DNA of 64,000 bases from Chloroflexota bacterium (GTDB lineage Bacteria; Chloroflexota; Anaerolineae; Anaerolineales; Villigracilaceae). The DNA lies in the NCBI GenBank assembly GCA_016234495.1, contig JACRBI010000054.1, positions 186,001 to 250,000 of the forward strand, read 5' to 3'. This document shows positions 30,097 to 35,736 of the stretch, piece after piece; position 1 is the stretch's first letter, and every line of letters begins with the position of its first letter. Below the pieces are notes generated by a model. It saw nothing but the letters and a program-made list of their open reading frames with translations. It searched no databases and was not told the origin of the DNA. The position numbers and the translations under genes are program-made.

Positions 30097-31494
30097 ATGA
30101 TTACGATTACTGAAATATACAAGGTAAACAACGAGATTGTTTTTTTCATTTATGGATTGGCATTCTTTACTCTGGGGTTTGCCATCATCCTGCAAACACG
30201 GCAAACATCACGCCTGGAACTCGCATATAGTTTGCGATGGTTGGCTGCGTTTGGAATTATCCATGGGTTGTATGAATGGGGAGATTTGTTCATACCGATT
30301 CAGGCAAGTTATTTAAGCGAGAAGCTAATCATGCTTCTGTACTGGCTGCATCTGGTGTTTCTGGCGATTTCCTTCGTTTGCCTGCTGGAGTTTGGGTTGC
30401 AACAGATTTCACCCCTCCCACGCTCTCAATTTATGCATTGGCAGCCGCTTGCAATTCTTGGATTGTGGTCTGCCGTCGTATTTTTTATCTTGCCAGCGAA
30501 TTTTTCAGATTCGCATCAAGTACGCCTTACTGGGAATGCGCTCGCACGTTACTTTATTCTGATTCCCGGCGGGCTGGCTTCTGCCTACGGTTTGCGCGTT
30601 CATGCCATGCAACATATTGCCCCTTTAAATGCGCCAAAAATTCTTCAGAATTTTCAGATTGCCGGAGTCTCTTTATTTCTATATACAATAGTTGGTGGAA
30701 CTATCCCCCCGCCCACACCTTTTTTTCCGGGTAATTTTCTTAATACCAGAACGTTTATTGAAATTACAGGAACGCCAGTGATGGTTTTCCGTTCTATATT
30801 CGCCATGCTCATCACAATAACAGTGGTGCGCGGGATGGAAATCTTTGGACTGGAAGCAGAGCGACGCATTGAGGAACTCGAACAACAGCAAATTATTAAC
30901 GCGGAACGGGAACGCCTGGCGCGTGACTTGCATGATGGCGCGATCCAAAAAGTGTACACTGCGGGTTTACTGGTTGAATCGGCTGCCCGATTGGCGAAAC
31001 CAGATACGGAATTAGACAAACGGTTGACGCGCGCTGTAACGGTTGTTAGCGACGCAATTCTTGATTTACGGCGGAACCTGGCTGAGTTACATGAGCATTC
31101 ACAAATTGAGTATGCGTCTCTATCGCAGTTGCTACGCCATATTCCGCAAAACCCAAATTACAGCACAATTGTAAATATTTTAATTACCGACGAACTGCCT
31201 AAAGAAAAAAACGTATCCACCCGCCGCGCGAATCATATTGTTGCCATTATCAATGAGGCATTGGCAAATACAATCCGTCATTCCGGCGCGCGCAATGCGC
31301 AAGTTATAGCAAAAAATGACGGGGAATTAATACATATCACAATCAAAGACGATGGCGCAGGATTGCCGCCCGAATTCAAAAATGGTTACGGGCTGAGAAA
31401 CATGAACGACCGCGCGCGCCTGCTAGGTGGAAAAATTGAATTTAAAAACGATCACGGATTGGTTATTCTGCTTGAAATCCCCTGGAGCGACTAA
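30097..31494 (+). CDS. Membrane sensor histidine kinase, NarL-partner (HisKA_3) type
   Basis: 465 residues. About seven hydrophobic segments occupy residues 10-245, a 7TM-like sensor without a large soluble loop. The HisKA_3 phospho-acceptor is H279 in RERLARDLHDGAIQK; the GHKL ATPase shows EALANTIRHSGA, DDGAGLPP and GYGLRNMNDRARLLGG. It phosphorylates a LuxR-type regulator, encoded next with no spacer. The DNA is noticeably more AT-rich than the chemosensory cluster. It faces the cytochrome genes, which are its likely regulon. Confidence 0.92.
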   Translation: MITITEIYKVNNEIVFFIYGLAFFTLGFAIILQTRQTSRLELAYSLRWLAAFGIIHGLYEWGDLFIPIQASYLSEKLIMLLYWLHLVFLAISFVCLLEFGLQQISPLPRSQFMHWQPLAILGLWSAVVFFILPANFSDSHQVRLTGNALARYFILIPGGLASAYGLRVHAMQHIAPLNAPKILQNFQIAGVSLFLYTIVGGTIPPPTPFFPGNFLNTRTFIEITGTPVMVFRSIFAMLITITVVRGMEIFGLEAERRIEELEQQQIINAERERLARDLHDGAIQKVYTAGLLVESAARLAKPDTELDKRLTRAVTVVSDAILDLRRNLAELHEHSQIEYASLSQLLRHIPQNPNYSTIVNILITDELPKEKNVSTRRANHIVAIINEALANTIRHSGARNAQVIAKNDGELIHITIKDDGAGLPPEFKNGYGLRNMNDRARLLGGKIEFKNDHGLVILLEIPWSD

Positions 31495-32157
31495 ATGAAA
31501 AAAATACGGGTTCTGCTTGTAGATGACCACGACATTGTGCGACTTGGTTTGATGACTTTGTTAAATGACCAACCGGATATGGAAGTGGTCGGCGAAGCCA
31601 GCGCCTCGATGCCGGCAATACAAGCATCTGAAAGGTTCCAGCCGGATGTGGTGCTGATGGATATCCGCCTGCCGGGCGAAGGCGGCATTGAAGCTACGCG
31701 CCAAATAACATCTCGCTTTGCCCATATAAAAGTTGTGATGTTGACATCGTTTGCGGATGACGATCTGGTCATTCGCGCCATCAACGCCGGGGCAACAGGA
31801 TACGTCCTTAAACAAGTTGGAAATGAGGAGTTGATTCGCGCAATTCGTGCAACAGCGCGCGGCGAGTCGCTACTTGATTCCTCTACCACTGCGCGGCTTC
31901 TGGCACATGTTCGCAAAACGGATCGCCTGGCGCAAGAAGATGCTTTTCGAGATTTCACTGACCGCGAAATGGATGTCTTGCTGTATCTGGCAAAGGGGAA
32001 GACCAATTCTGAAATTGCATCCCTGTTACATTTGAGCGAAAAAACTGTAGGGAATTATGTAGCCAACATGTTCATGAAATTGCAGGTAAACAACCGGGTC
32101 GAACTTGCCGCATACGCATACGAACATCATTTGTTTGAAAAGATCGGCAAGGAATAA
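31495..32157 (+). CDS. NarL/FixJ-family response regulator
   Basis: 220 residues. Receiver at 1-125 with D56 (VLMDIRLPGEGG) and switch residues LTSF and LKQVG; LuxR-type helix-turn-helix at about 150-215 (FTDREMDVLLYLAKGKTNSEIASLLHLSEKTVGNYV). Start ATG directly follows the kinase stop. A terminator follows. Inverted TAGGGG/CCCCTA sites upstream of the facing electron-transfer genes are candidate targets. Confidence 0.95.
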   Translation: MKKIRVLLVDDHDIVRLGLMTLLNDQPDMEVVGEASASMPAIQASERFQPDVVLMDIRLPGEGGIEATRQITSRFAHIKVVMLTSFADDDLVIRAINAGATGYVLKQVGNEELIRAIRATARGESLLDSSTTARLLAHVRKTDRLAQEDAFRDFTDREMDVLLYLAKGKTNSEIASLLHLSEKTVGNYVANMFMKLQVNNRVELAAYAYEHHLFEKIGKE

Positions 32158-32163
32158 AAATCG

Positions 32164-32198
32164 AACCCCTCAAGGCGATTAGACCTTGAGGGGTTTTT
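32164..32198. terminator. Bidirectional terminator after the NarL-type regulator
   Basis: AACCCCTCAAGG and CCTTGAGGGGTT with an eight-base loop, then TTTTT; lies between convergent genes. Confidence 0.88.
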
Positions 32199-32219: not shown

Positions 32220-33383
32220 TTATTTCGGCATGAAGACTAGGCTGTTCACTCCAAGCGGGTAAGCATGGCGAACTTGAGCGTTCTCGAAGATTGCCAACCC
32301 GAAGAAATACTGGGCGGCAAGGTCGCTGAACTGCACGTCGGTTTCCGAACCGGTTACGAGCGCGCGGCTGAATTCAATTGTCCATTTGCCGTCAACCCAT
32401 TTCCATCCGGCGGAGATTTGACCGCGGTCGCCTACGATCTCAGACTTGATGATACCGGGCAGGTAAGAGCCTACGGGCATGGCGTCGAGCGCGGCTTGAT
32501 CGAGCGCGACCTTTTCGCTGTCGAGGATGTAACCGGGAGCGCCAGTCGTCAGGTCAACATTGGGGGATGTAAAGCCGGGCTTGGATTTGTCGGCAACGGT
32601 CTTGGTCGCGTCAGCAGGATCGGGCATGGAGGCGAAGTTGTCAGCATAACCGCCAGAGTCTTTCGCGTCGCTCTTGCGTCCGGCTTCCTTCGCTTTTTCG
32701 GCGTCGAAGCGGGTTGAGTCAAGATATTGGTCGTCAATCTGGTTCAAATTGCGAACGGACTTCCAGTGCCAAATGTCGCCCAGTTCGCCTTCGTTCGCTG
32801 TGTATTTGTTGCCGTAAGGTTTCAAATCAGGATTTTCGCCATCATGGCAAGCTACCTGACAGCCGAATTCGTTGAAGTCTGCAATGCTGTTGTTGATGTT
32901 CCAAATCATGGCAAACTTATCTTCATAGACAGAGTTATTGTCGCCGCCTTTATCGTTCGGGTCCTTAATTTGTTTCCATGTGCCGTCTTCCTGTTTCTGC
33001 CAGGGGGAGCGAAACCAAGATTCGGTGGGGTCGGCATAGGTCAACATAAAATACACGGTGTCAGCGGTGTAAACGGCTTTAAGTTCCGCTTCGGTTGTGA
33101 ATTCATTAAAGCCTTTTTGGACTTTAACGGTGACCGACTGCGCGTTTGCCCAAGCTGCGTCATCGGCTACGCCATCGAGCGTAGGAGCGGCGTCAACGGG
33201 AGCGGCAATCAACGCGCCTTCGGGCGCTTCCCAAGCAGGGGCGGGGGCTTCGGTCGCGGGGGCTTCTGTAGCAGGCGCTTCCGTTGCGGGCGCTTCGGTG
33301 GGTTCCGGGGCAGGTGCGCCGCATGCTGAAAGCAGCATGGAAGCCAGAACGATCAGGGAAAGAACAAAAGTGACTTTTTTCAT
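32220..33383 (-). CDS. Ethylbenzene-dehydrogenase-related haem-binding lipoprotein
   Basis: 387 residues. Signal peptide with lipobox ending LLSAC (C21), then a tandem 5-residue TEAPA linker (about 28-47; 15-bp DNA repeats near 33240-33300). The main domain matches the EB_dh family (haem-b-binding gamma subunit of ethylbenzene and DMSO-reductase-family dehydrogenases): TLDGVADDAAWANAQ, VYFMLTYADPTESWFRSPW, YEDKFAMIWNIN and the C-terminal FSRALVTG. A C-x3-C-H motif (CQVACHDGE) could attach haem c. It should be an extracytoplasmic electron carrier. AAGGAG precedes the start. A TAGGGG inverted repeat lies 118-137 bp upstream of the start codon. Confidence 0.87.
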   Translation of the reverse strand: MKKVTFVLSLIVLASMLLSACGAPAPEPTEAPATEAPATEAPATEAPAPAWEAPEGALIAAPVDAAPTLDGVADDAAWANAQSVTVKVQKGFNEFTTEAELKAVYTADTVYFMLTYADPTESWFRSPWQKQEDGTWKQIKDPNDKGGDNNSVYEDKFAMIWNINNSIADFNEFGCQVACHDGENPDLKPYGNKYTANEGELGDIWHWKSVRNLNQIDDQYLDSTRFDAEKAKEAGRKSDAKDSGGYADNFASMPDPADATKTVADKSKPGFTSPNVDLTTGAPGYILDSEKVALDQAALDAMPVGSYLPGIIKSEIVGDRGQISAGWKWVDGKWTIEFSRALVTGSETDVQFSDLAAQYFFGLAIFENAQVRHAYPLGVNSLVFMPK

Positions 33384-33500
33384 ATCGATTCTCCTTAAAT
33401 TATTTCTTGAATTCAGGCAAATATTCCTGGAGATTCAAGTGCATGTTAATATTTTAGGTGGAATATTTTTTTACAGTTAGAGGGATTTCTCCGTATGGAA

Positions 33501-33520
33501 TTAGGGGAAATCTCCCCTAA
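33501..33520. promoter_or_regulatory. Candidate operator upstream of the haem lipoprotein
   Basis: Perfect inverted repeat TTAGGGGA-AATC-TCCCCTAA, followed by AAAAATT. The same two elements (CCCTAAAAAT and TAGGGGAAAT) recur upstream of the cytochrome c gene at 35717-35736, at a similar distance from the start codon. Confidence 0.55.
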
Positions 33521-33541
33521 AAATTCTTACGGGTAACGCAT

Positions 33542-33585
33542 AAAAACCAGCACCCCAATCCTTCAGGAGAGATGCTGGCTTTTTA
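33542..33585 (-). terminator. Terminator of the cytochrome c/b unit
   Basis: Minus-strand arms AGCCAGCA and TGCTGGTT with an inner CTCTCC/GG stem, then TTTTTA. It is about 25 bp after the cytochrome b stop. Confidence 0.75.
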
Positions 33586-33608
33586 CGCAAGTTCGCTTTT
33601 TTTATGGG

Positions 33609-34463
33609 CTAAGGGGTGGGCGTCGTATAAATTTGAGTTTCTGTCAGCGGTTGGACAGTCTCCAGCGCGGTTGCTTCTGAATTTACAAACCCGTATATTC
33701 CCGCAAGCATCATGATCGCCAGCACGCCCGCGATGGGGTAGTAGATCATTTGGCGTTTGCGAATTGTTTGCGCGTTTGGAGCCTGATGTGTGTTCCCAGA
33801 TTTGATCTCTTCCAGTTCGAGAGGATGTTCGTGCAGCATTGCTTCTTCAGATATTTGCCCATTAAACATGGCTTTATTGAAACGCTTGATATGCACTCCA
33901 TACATGTGCCATATCATGATCGCAAGCACCGCGAGAACAGCTTCGCCGCCGTGCGCAGCTTTTGCCGCTGGGACAAATTCACCAGGCAGGAAGTTAGTGG
34001 CTGTGATTGGGTTCCACATCATGAAACCTGTAACGCCCATGACGATCGCCCCCCAAACAAAAGCCCAATATTCCATTTTTTCTTCAAATGTATACCGACC
34101 CATCTTAGGGTATGTTTTTGCGACTCTAATATTGTAGAGAAACGCTTGAATACCGTCTTTGGCATCTTGGAGCTTTGGCTGCATGGAGAGCGGCTCATTC
34201 AATACAAAAAAGTTATAGCCCATGACAAGCAGATGCCAAGCGGCGCAGAACATCATCACAATCGCCGCAGAGTGATGAATTTCTCGCAGGGTTTCAATGC
34301 TATTTGGTACTCTTAGCAGCGTTCGCGCAATTGTGTTGTCTGGAAACCTTTGGAGCAACCCGGTTACGCCTAGTAAGGTGAAACAGAGCATCATGACCCA
34401 GTGTTCAATACGGCGGGCGAGTGGAAATCTCAAATAGGTTTGGTTGGGTTTATTCATAGTCAT
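33609..34463 (-). CDS. Membrane cytochrome b (FdnI/HydC-like)
   Basis: 284 residues from the ATG at 34463 (AAGGA five bases upstream), overlapping the cytochrome c gene by 14 bp. Four transmembrane helices carry the histidines expected for two b haems: RRIEHWVMM, REIHHSAAIVMM, AAWHLLVMG and IMIWHMYGVHIKRF. This is the formate-dehydrogenase-gamma / hydrogenase cytochrome b pattern, which exchanges electrons with menaquinone. A fifth hydrophobic segment near 250 anchors a short C-terminal tail. Coupled to the multihaem cytochrome c, it should form a quinone:cytochrome c oxidoreductase. Confidence 0.88.
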   Translation of the reverse strand: MTMNKPNQTYLRFPLARRIEHWVMMLCFTLLGVTGLLQRFPDNTIARTLLRVPNSIETLREIHHSAAIVMMFCAAWHLLVMGYNFFVLNEPLSMQPKLQDAKDGIQAFLYNIRVAKTYPKMGRYTFEEKMEYWAFVWGAIVMGVTGFMMWNPITATNFLPGEFVPAAKAAHGGEAVLAVLAIMIWHMYGVHIKRFNKAMFNGQISEEAMLHEHPLELEEIKSGNTHQAPNAQTIRKRQMIYYPIAGVLAIMMLAGIYGFVNSEATALETVQPLTETQIYTTPTP

Positions 34464-35619
34464 TTTCTTCCTTGGGAACAATGGATGGGACGCGTTTGGT
34501 TACAGGAACGACGGATCTGTAAACATCGCTCAGAACAAACAATATCATGCCGCCAAGTACCGTGGGAATAAAGTACTTATAGAACAGGTTGACATAGTAC
34601 ACAATGGGGTAGTGTTCTGGGCTTGGTTCGTAATGACTCATCCACGCCGCAGAAAAATTAGGACCGGCATCGGGGTGGCAACGCTGGCATTTGCCCAGCA
34701 GATTTGCCTGGATTGCAACGCCAGTTTTTGGGTCATCCGTTTTTGTAATGTCATGCACGCCATGGCAGTCAGTACAAACCGCTTTGTTTGTGGGTTGATC
34801 GGGAAACTGTTCTTCAAATATCTTAACTGTAGCGCCATGAAAATCTGCTACATAAGTATCTATAACATGGGTTGAAATATCGTACTTGTCCATGATCTCT
34901 GCGTTTGAGTGGCATTTTCCACATAAGGCTGGGGTGCTGTTGTGAAAAGATGTAGTGCCTCCTTGAACGTTATGAACGCCGTGACAGTTGATGCAGGTTG
35001 GCACGTCATCGTTACCCCCTTCGCTTAATGCCTTGCCGTGAACGCTTTCTTGATACTTTCCATATATTTCGGCGTGGCATTGAGAACAGGTTTCCTGAAT
35101 TAAACGTTGGATAGCCACAAACGTGATCTCGCCTTTCGTATCCCTCTCAAACCGGGTTGACGTGTGGGGATTATGGCAATCTGAGCAGATCGCTGCCGAT
35201 TCCTCCCCGTTTTGAAAAGCGGCTTGATGCGCACTGTCTTGTGCTTTCTCAAATTGTTCTTCGTGACATTCTTTGCACGCGGTATTTAATGACTGGGAAT
35301 GCGCGCGAAGACTTTTTTCTTCGATTTTGGGATGTGGGTAGCTCTTGATATTAGCATGACAGTCTGCGCATTCTACTTTTTCTACCGCATGAACTGATTT
35401 TTCAAATTTGGCTGGGTCAATCGTGGCAGAAACCGACTCGCCGTCTACCACCACTTCCAAGCCCTCATCTTTATGACAATTGATACAAACGTTGCTGGCA
35501 GATTTTATTTTTAATTCTGGTGCCGCCTGAGCCGAAGGTATTAAAGAAAAAAATAAAAGCACAACCCCTAGAAATAAAACGAATACCGACCGGAATAAGA
35601 ACCAATTTTTTTGTTGCAT
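34450..35619 (-). CDS. Membrane-anchored nine-haem cytochrome c
   Basis: 389 residues from the ATG at 35619 (GGAG six bases upstream); a longer frame lacks support. N-terminal signal/anchor (FLGVVLLFFSLIPSAQA), then nine CxxCH motifs in order: CINCH, CADCH, CKECH, CSDCH, CSQCH, CINCH, CGKCH, CTDCH, CQRCH. A C-terminal helix (IPTVLGGMILFVLSDVY) anchors it to the membrane. The arrangement resembles the c-type part of Geobacter inner-membrane quinone oxidoreductases such as CbcL, but here the b-type part is a separate gene. It probably carries electrons outward from the quinone pool; the acceptor is unknown. Confidence 0.9.
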   Translation of the reverse strand: MQQKNWFLFRSVFVLFLGVVLLFFSLIPSAQAAPELKIKSASNVCINCHKDEGLEVVVDGESVSATIDPAKFEKSVHAVEKVECADCHANIKSYPHPKIEEKSLRAHSQSLNTACKECHEEQFEKAQDSAHQAAFQNGEESAAICSDCHNPHTSTRFERDTKGEITFVAIQRLIQETCSQCHAEIYGKYQESVHGKALSEGGNDDVPTCINCHGVHNVQGGTTSFHNSTPALCGKCHSNAEIMDKYDISTHVIDTYVADFHGATVKIFEEQFPDQPTNKAVCTDCHGVHDITKTDDPKTGVAIQANLLGKCQRCHPDAGPNFSAAWMSHYEPSPEHYPIVYYVNLFYKYFIPTVLGGMILFVLSDVYRSVVPVTKRVPSIVPKEENDYE

Positions 35620-35716
35620 CGCATACTCCTTGCAAGAATTGCGCTTTCTGAGATTAAAGTCCATTAATCTTTCCAAATTTTATAAAAATTTTCGAAATAA
35701 CAATAGAGGATGTTTA

Positions 35717-35736
35717 CCCTAAAAATGTAGGGGAAA
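35717..35736. promoter_or_regulatory. Candidate operator upstream of the cytochrome c gene
   Basis: CCCTA-N6-TAGGG (35717-35732) extended to TAGGGGAAAT, about 98-117 bp upstream of the cytochrome c start. It shares both sequence blocks with 33501-33520, in swapped order. Confidence 0.5.

Follow-up and report, generated by a model that had tools for sequence, protein, structure and literature searches.

A nonaheme cytochrome c and cytochrome b pair with a neighboring EB_dh heme lipoprotein in a Villigracilaceae bacterium: a candidate quinol-linked electron exit with a putative common operator

We analyzed a 64,000-nt stretch of DNA from a Chloroflexota bacterium (Villigracilaceae), referred to below as the window (contig JACRBI010000054.1, positions 186,001-250,000; all coordinates are those of the window), which holds genes for a nonaheme membrane cytochrome c (multiheme cytochrome, MHC), an FdnI/HydC-type cytochrome b, an EB_dh heme lipoprotein and a NarL-type kinase/regulator pair. 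The best-supported new point is shared control: a putative operator lies before both the MHC-cytochrome b unit and the lipoprotein gene. Five window proteins were covered by a Pfam scan and the remaining window open reading frames (ORFs) were judged by eye. The organism's own genome, a 4.1-Mb sequence, was scanned for the operator, PF09459, COX1 and paralogues, and comparisons were made across 151 genomes, own included, 57 of them of the same genus.

Genes and putative operators at the locus

The features of the locus are, in order of position:

30097..31494, plus strand: sensor histidine kinase, HisKA_3 and HATPase_c (Pfam), with a hydrophobic N-terminal half (multi-helix membrane sensor); orthologues adjoin the EB_dh lipoprotein gene in relatives
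31495..32157, plus strand: NarL/FixJ-type (LuxR/NarL) response regulator, Response_reg and GerE (Pfam), which may bind the operator
32164..32195, minus strand: terminator-like hairpin where the regulator and lipoprotein genes converge; one found versus 8.1 expected in shuffles, weak alone
32220..33383, minus strand: EB_dh heme lipoprotein with lipobox Cys21 and a CX3CH motif (Cys175, Cys179, His180); PF09459 at 114.3 bits (cut-off 33.3)
33478..33507, minus strand: putative operator 5' of the lipoprotein gene, differing from CCCCTRNNNNNNYAGGGNNNNNNNCCTCTA at one position and overlapping the palindrome TTAGGGGAGATTTCCCCTAA at 33501-33520
33536..33588, minus strand: terminator-like hairpin 3' of the cytochrome b gene; -28.6 kcal/mol, T tract, z -5.8
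33609..34463, minus strand: cytochrome b of FdnI/HydC type with five hydrophobic helices; PF01292 at 67 bits (cut-off 30.1) and an FdnI match
34450..35619, minus strand: nonaheme membrane cytochrome c (MHC) with an N-terminal signal/anchor and a C-terminal helix; nine CxxCH motifs, PF09699 match
35704..35733, minus strand: putative operator 5' of the MHC-cytochrome b unit, matching CCCCTRNNNNNNYAGGGNNNNNNNCCTCTA exactly

The open frame of the MHC runs over 34450-35676, and its likely start is the ATG at 35619, which stands behind AAGGAG, yields a protein of 389 residues and gives a Met kept in 36 of 38 aligned rows. The MHC and cytochrome b genes overlap by 14 bp (34450-34463); both this overlap and the identity of the two proteins, as given in an initial annotation of the locus, were confirmed by the ORFs and by Pfam. 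The kinase and regulator genes converge from the plus strand on the lipoprotein gene and thus face the other three, again as first described, and their products, a HisKA_3 kinase and a receiver-GerE regulator, have the Pfam traits of a NarL-type two-component system. The lipoprotein gene is indeed next on the same strand, but it begins 225 bp past the cytochrome b gene and behind a hairpin. Since this T-tract hairpin, which is absent from the list of a simpler terminator scan, stands 3' of the cytochrome b gene, a second transcript most likely carries the lipoprotein gene, apart from the MHC and cytochrome b. A single transcript for the three minus-strand genes was rejected on account of the hairpin and of the second operator before the lipoprotein gene. 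Judged by eye, no molybdenum or Fe-S subunit gene was found beside the lipoprotein gene among the neighboring window ORFs.

The putative operator and the kinase type

The operator pattern CCCCTRNNNNNNYAGGGNNNNNNNCCTCTA was drafted after the window sites were known. In the own genome it occurs, allowing up to two mismatches, at two sites only, one before the MHC gene (no mismatch) and one before the lipoprotein gene (one mismatch). Upstream regions of the lipoprotein genes of relatives contain an inverted repeat and a third half site, and a weight matrix built from the relatives' sites only ranked the two promoter regions first within the window, the next best position elsewhere scoring 13.8 bits. 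In this matrix the MHC site (35704) reached 25.0 bits and a plus-strand site at 33490, which overlaps the lipoprotein site, reached 25.5 bits. Across the 57 genomes of the genus, at no more than one mismatch, there were 13 sites in 11 genomes, all of them at the kinase/lipoprotein/MHC module. Of these, 11 precede the lipoprotein gene, one the window MHC gene and one an octaheme lipoprotein gene in genome G031.

The presence of the operator followed the type of kinase encoded nearby. Leave-one-out scoring over 29 genomes separated 18 lipoprotein promoters with the operator (at least 11.7 bits) from 11 without it (at most 3.4 bits). A kinase of the window type (46-61% identity) was near the promoter in 18 of the 18 operator-bearing cases, while ten of the 11 operator-less promoters were accompanied by a distant kinase (at most 30%) or none, and the eleventh, in G013, lies off the contig. 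Hence the operator was near none of the ten testable lipoprotein promoters that lack the window kinase type. Lipoprotein promoters with another kinase type nearby (L095, L101, L107, L108, L117 and L118) show TTGGGT-N6-ACCCAA-like dyads, and those of L095 and L117 GTGAC-N4-GTCAC, in place of the operator.

The octaheme lipoprotein of G031 may be a third target. It has matches in 17 of the 151 genomes and none in the own genome (both at E 1e-30). When 14 octaheme-lipoprotein loci were scanned, the operator was found at 17.8 bits or more in five (G019, G025, G031, G110 and G131), all of which adjoin the window kinase type, and the other nine scored 5.3 bits or less. Among these nine, four have no window-type kinase on the contig (G095, G097, G100 and G108), two have distant kinases (G122 and G140; 26-27%) and three fell outside the kinase comparison (G080, G121 and G134). 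Thus, taking lipoprotein, MHC and octaheme sites together, the operator tracks the kinase type over three kinds of target, all of them heme proteins of the putative exit route. The octaheme lipoprotein gene immediately precedes an MHC gene in L050, L084 and six contig-database loci, of which L236 is the L084 contig again. At L160:9259-10512 and at L175:2160-3377 the encoded octaheme lipoprotein has, behind its lipobox, a collagen-like Gly-Pro-Ala linker.

Together, these patterns suggest that the adjacent regulator probably switches on both the cytochrome core and the lipoprotein through a common operator. We found no description of the pair with an EB_dh lipoprotein, or of the operator, in the titles and abstract openings of the open-licence papers that our literature searches listed.

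The cytochrome pair and the heme lipoprotein in relatives

The pairing of MHC with cytochrome b is more than chance. In loci L031-L090 every one of the 71 MHC genes, own-genome paralogues accounting for two of these, is followed by a cytochrome b gene (71 of 71). The same holds for 95 of 95 contig-database loci with at least 600 bp downstream, a set that overlaps the first. MHC matches are present in 79 of the 151 genomes, own included (E 1e-3). In the wider contig-database scan with the MHC, the best 80 of 581 loci all bear Chloroflexota titles except for one titled Actinomycetes (L253); they include the cultured carriers Anaerolinea thermolimosa and Bellilinea caldifistulae and no Geobacter-titled locus. 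A plasmid search returned 32 records, and among the 10 listed seven matches bear the annotation formate dehydrogenase b subunit and three bear none.

The homologues also keep their candidate heme ligands. Nine CxxCH motifs are found in 64 of the 71 MHC homologues and ten in the remaining seven. In addition, the non-motif His residues 91, 110, 145, 166, 208, 230, 275, 303 and 343 are kept in 37-38 of 38 rows, and these nine would provide one second ligand per heme, giving bis-His coordination. A conserved second His at all nine hemes argues for electron transfer and against a substrate reductase. In cytochrome b, His 21, 63, 77, 171, 186 and 213 are invariant in 35 of 35 rows, and four of the six would fit the FdnI ligand pattern; the protein would carry two b hemes. 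Hydropathy gives one helix after the hemes in the MHC and five in cytochrome b, six in all. CxxCH is present in 22 of the 71 cytochrome b homologues, with a C-terminal PSCyt1 match in the one of these that was scanned, and absent from the window protein. Tandem MHC-cytochrome b-MHC-cytochrome b arrays occur in L033-L037, L053, L063, L067, L079, L081 and L086, several of them beside another kinase/regulator pair. A single TGA lies inside the multiheme match at G011:C288 and G055:C33 and in paralogues in G008:C10 and G042:C53, and may reflect read-through, selenocysteine or a match that runs past the gene end.

The lipoprotein is the only PF09459 match in its own genome, and the search with the EB_dh model that the initial annotation had proposed placed it well above the cut-off (scores in the feature list). 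No row out of 25 departs from its CX3CH motif, and 24 of 25 keep His373, making these the candidate heme ligands in a structural model built without heme. This model (mean predicted local distance difference test score, pLDDT, 79.5) aligned with EbdC (2ivf_C) at Z 19.7 and a root-mean-square deviation (rmsd) of 2.4 over 192 residues, and with NXR-C (7b04_C) at Z 19.0 and rmsd 2.9 over 203 residues. NXR-C is reported to ligate its b heme by Met and Lys, as EBDH does, through Met155 and Lys305 (PMC8387239). Because the CX3CH is invariant here, in contrast to the Met/Lys ligation of the b heme in NXR-C and EBDH, the heme of the window lipoprotein is probably held covalently via this motif.

The gene order of the window as a whole is not kept in relatives, and a conserved five-gene operon was therefore rejected. 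Instead, MHC-cytochrome b and kinase-regulator-lipoprotein are each kept as separate modules that come together in few genomes, so that the conserved synteny on which the initial annotation had made its reading depend holds for the parts and not for the whole. The lipoprotein gene is beside the MHC-cytochrome b pair or one gene from it in four other genomes (G054, G089, G119 and G131). In 19 of 29 neighborhoods the lipoprotein gene has a kinase of the window type close by. These 19 share the convergent layout of the window, with two exceptions: G131 has collinear genes, and G031 has the octaheme lipoprotein gene in between. Genomes with the lipoprotein mostly have the MHC as well (29 of 31, versus 48 of the 120 others; Fisher 3e-8), also within the genus (19 of 20 versus 19 of 37; p 9e-4), in tests uncorrected for phylogeny. 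Given the hairpin, the separate modules and the two operator sites, the linkage is of a kind other than first proposed: two units that probably share one operator.

Relatives often have the MHC-cytochrome b pair within a larger redox island: the pair is followed by a NapC-like cytochrome, and NrfD, ferredoxin-type and multiheme genes lie in the vicinity. In 27 of 71 loci the gene immediately before the MHC gene encodes a decaheme lipoprotein, and 31 of the 33 ORFs of its cluster have ten CxxCH motifs. In the own genome NrfD and its multiheme neighbor are on contig C11. A tree of 72 MHC rows grouped the window MHC with those of G025 and G032 from its genus (99/91), on a branch of 0.87 compared to a median end branch of 0.16, and the placement of such long rows is unsure. 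Mean identity between window and relatives versus that among the relatives was 56% versus 74% for the MHC (12 relatives), 71/83 for cytochrome b, 58/70 for the kinase, 77/88 for the regulator, 75/75 for the lipoprotein and 76.5/82.6 for NrfD. The acceleration of the MHC is only partly specific, since identity also drops by about 6 points for NrfD and c7 and by about 12 points for the regulator, kinase and cytochrome b, though not for the lipoprotein. Decay of the MHC was rejected as the cause of its divergence, as the heme ligands are intact. We infer that the window MHC is a member of its genus that left the ancestral island, and that the core relocated, trading one promoter control for another.

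Candidate electron route and known systems

We think it fairly probable that the locus encodes a membrane quinone:cytochrome oxidoreductase with a heme lipoprotein exit, under the adjacent two-component system; architecture and neighborhood point to a quinol-linked electron exit. The MHC and cytochrome b would form the oxidoreductase, in which the b subunit would take electrons from menaquinol and pass them to the nine bis-His hemes on the membrane's outer side; the lipid-anchored EB_dh heme lipoprotein would receive them next and hand them to an acceptor beyond the membrane. The kinase would respond to some redox or membrane signal, and the regulator would bind the operator before both transcription units, so that core and exit protein would be made together. 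The sequence itself shows the genes, their heme motifs and conserved His, the pairing, the operator, the hairpin and the way operator and kinase type vary together; the menaquinol donor, the direction of flow, the two b hemes, the binding by the regulator, the contact between MHC and lipoprotein and the acceptor are inferred. The initial annotation is supported on the b-c module of quinone type, on its heme lipoprotein partner and, through the operator and its co-variation with the kinase, on control by the neighboring two-component system.

Several results weigh against this proposal. CCCCTRNNNNNNYAGGGNNNNNNNCCTCTA was composed with the window sites in view; its reversed control had one match in the own genome (up to two mismatches) and 10 in the same 57 genus genomes; and the lipoprotein site at 33478 scored 15.8 bits, below the 19.8 bits of the best of 20 shuffles, with the MHC site above it. 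An operator common to the MHC promoters of relatives was rejected, as it was found in one of 72 upstream regions only, the window's own, and 22 of the 72 have an exact TGGGG-N6-CCCCA dyad. Furthermore, lipoprotein and MHC-cytochrome b are apart in most genomes that have both, the decaheme lipoprotein has no full-length match in the own genome, and the direction of flow is not readable from sequence. Upstream of relatives' MHC genes, for example in L061, L064, L065 and L072, there is a conserved promoter, ATTGGGG-N6-CCCCATGACA, with a TATAAT-like box.

The remark in the initial annotation that a porin and an outer cytochrome are missing may hold at the locus itself, but for an outer cytochrome it does not hold for the genome, in which a third MHC-cytochrome b pair lies close to the gene of a large multiheme protein. 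Chloroflexota are described as presumably single-membrane, so a missing porin means little (PMC5808234, PMC7399161). The third pair lies on own-genome contig C32 (L287, L288; G000:C32:66000-93000) beside a NapC-like protein with eight CxxCH, with a sensor kinase bearing two CxxCH near it; the large protein combines a subtilisin-like protease part with at least 15 CxxCH (1973 residues in the stretch, in a 2181-residue frame).

On a broader scale, we put forward tentatively, at a little under even confidence, that Anaerolineae have a modular single-membrane exit, in which one b-c core would serve lineage-specific heme lipoproteins (decaheme, octaheme with a collagen-like linker, EB_dh with CX3CH), the two-component system and operator would follow the lipoproteins, and here the core would have moved beside the module and under its operator. 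Extracellular electron transfer is suspected for Anaerolineales whose genomes are rich in multiheme cytochromes (PMC7399161). For a link from the quinol pool to the outside, the locus offers a candidate core that is widespread, lipoproteins that may serve as the exit, and a regulator with a putative operator of defined sequence.

Alternatively, the complex might act inside the envelope, passing quinol electrons to soluble carriers and an oxidase as an alternative to complex III, without any extracellular acceptor. The own genome has three COX1 matches above cut-off, one of them on the same contig, and genes named by eye place the pair near a petD-like gene in G054, G089 and G119; G054 and G119 have cytochrome b6-like genes there as well, and G119 also a Rieske-like gene. 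However, no oxidase gene was seen beside the pair among the window ORFs, judged by eye, and its neighborhood in relatives frequently includes multiheme lipoproteins and a NapC-like cytochrome; we consider this alternative rather unlikely. Still less likely is a reverse flow, from an outside donor or partner cell via the lipoprotein to the reduction of menaquinone: both directions have been implicated for CbcL/MtoC/MtrH relatives, and in Seep-SRB2 CbcBA is proposed to operate in reverse (PMC10553843, PMC6295460), but nothing seen in the window points to an outside donor, and direction is invisible in sequence. That the lipoprotein and regulator belong to an unrelated system merely adjoining the cytochrome pair would agree with the separation of the two modules in most relatives having both and with the terminator-like hairpin between them, yet the operator is common to both units with only two sites in the own genome, and adjacency recurs in four other genomes alongside co-occurrence in 29 of 31, which leaves this reading quite improbable.

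Hydroxylamine oxidoreductase and NrfA have one catalytic heme without a distal protein ligand, a trait not seen in the MHC by sequence. We give very little credence to the MHC as a terminal reductase of the nitrite, hydroxylamine or tetrathionate type, and rejected it as a substrate reductase, the best match that the initial annotation had thought might overturn its reading: the fold weakly resembles that of hydroxylamine oxidoreductases (best Z 8.1, rmsd 15.6, 252 aligned), and profiles of NrfA and octaheme nitrite reductase match in part, but these profile matches cover short stretches only, a Z near 8 with high rmsd may reflect common heme packing, and nine CxxCH motifs with nine conserved distal His leave no obvious open heme.

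Compared to known systems, the MHC model resembles MtrA (6r2q_A) at Z 5.8, rmsd 5.0, 193 aligned and 26% identity, and an S-layer undecaheme cytochrome at Z 5.0, both too weak for membership; against the DmsE model it scored 57.2 bits, below the cut-off of 192.2, and it differs from MtrA/DmsE decahemes in its nine hemes, its C-terminal hydrophobic helix and its pairing with cytochrome b. The window lipoprotein is predicted to have the same EB_dh fold as EbdC and NXR-C, in line with its Pfam match, but differs from them as a lipoprotein with an invariant CX3CH and, by eye, no adjoining molybdoenzyme gene. An atypical CX3CH is on record in the quinone-linked cytochrome ImcH (PMC6295460), described as a NapC/NirT-like single protein (PMC12307469) and not of the EB_dh fold.

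The closest likeness in layout is to Geobacter. CbcL of Geobacter sulfurreducens is reported to have nine bis-His c hemes outside the membrane, an FdnI/HydC-type b part and six membrane helices (PMC9129911, PMC6295460); for the window pair, hydropathy suggests one helix plus five. In CbcL the b and c parts form one chain and the reported partner is PpcA, whereas here there are two overlapping genes and the partners would be heme lipoproteins. A 2018 survey reported zero CbcL/MtoC/MtrH homologues in Chloroflexi (PMC6295460). The label "split CbcL" used at first describes the layout well, with its nine c hemes, an FdnI-type b part and a total of six hydrophobic helices, but a two-gene form already exists in CbcBA. 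CbcBA (GSU0593/0594 of G. sulfurreducens), proposed as a menaquinone:cytochrome c link (PMC7726332, PMC10553843), has separate b (PF01292) and c (PF09699) subunits, and the window pair matches both families; CbcA is annotated as a heptaheme protein, in contrast to the nine hemes of the window MHC. With the Geobacter proteins compared by description only, the MHC-cytochrome b module is by layout of the CbcL/CbcBA kind, and a new variant of it.

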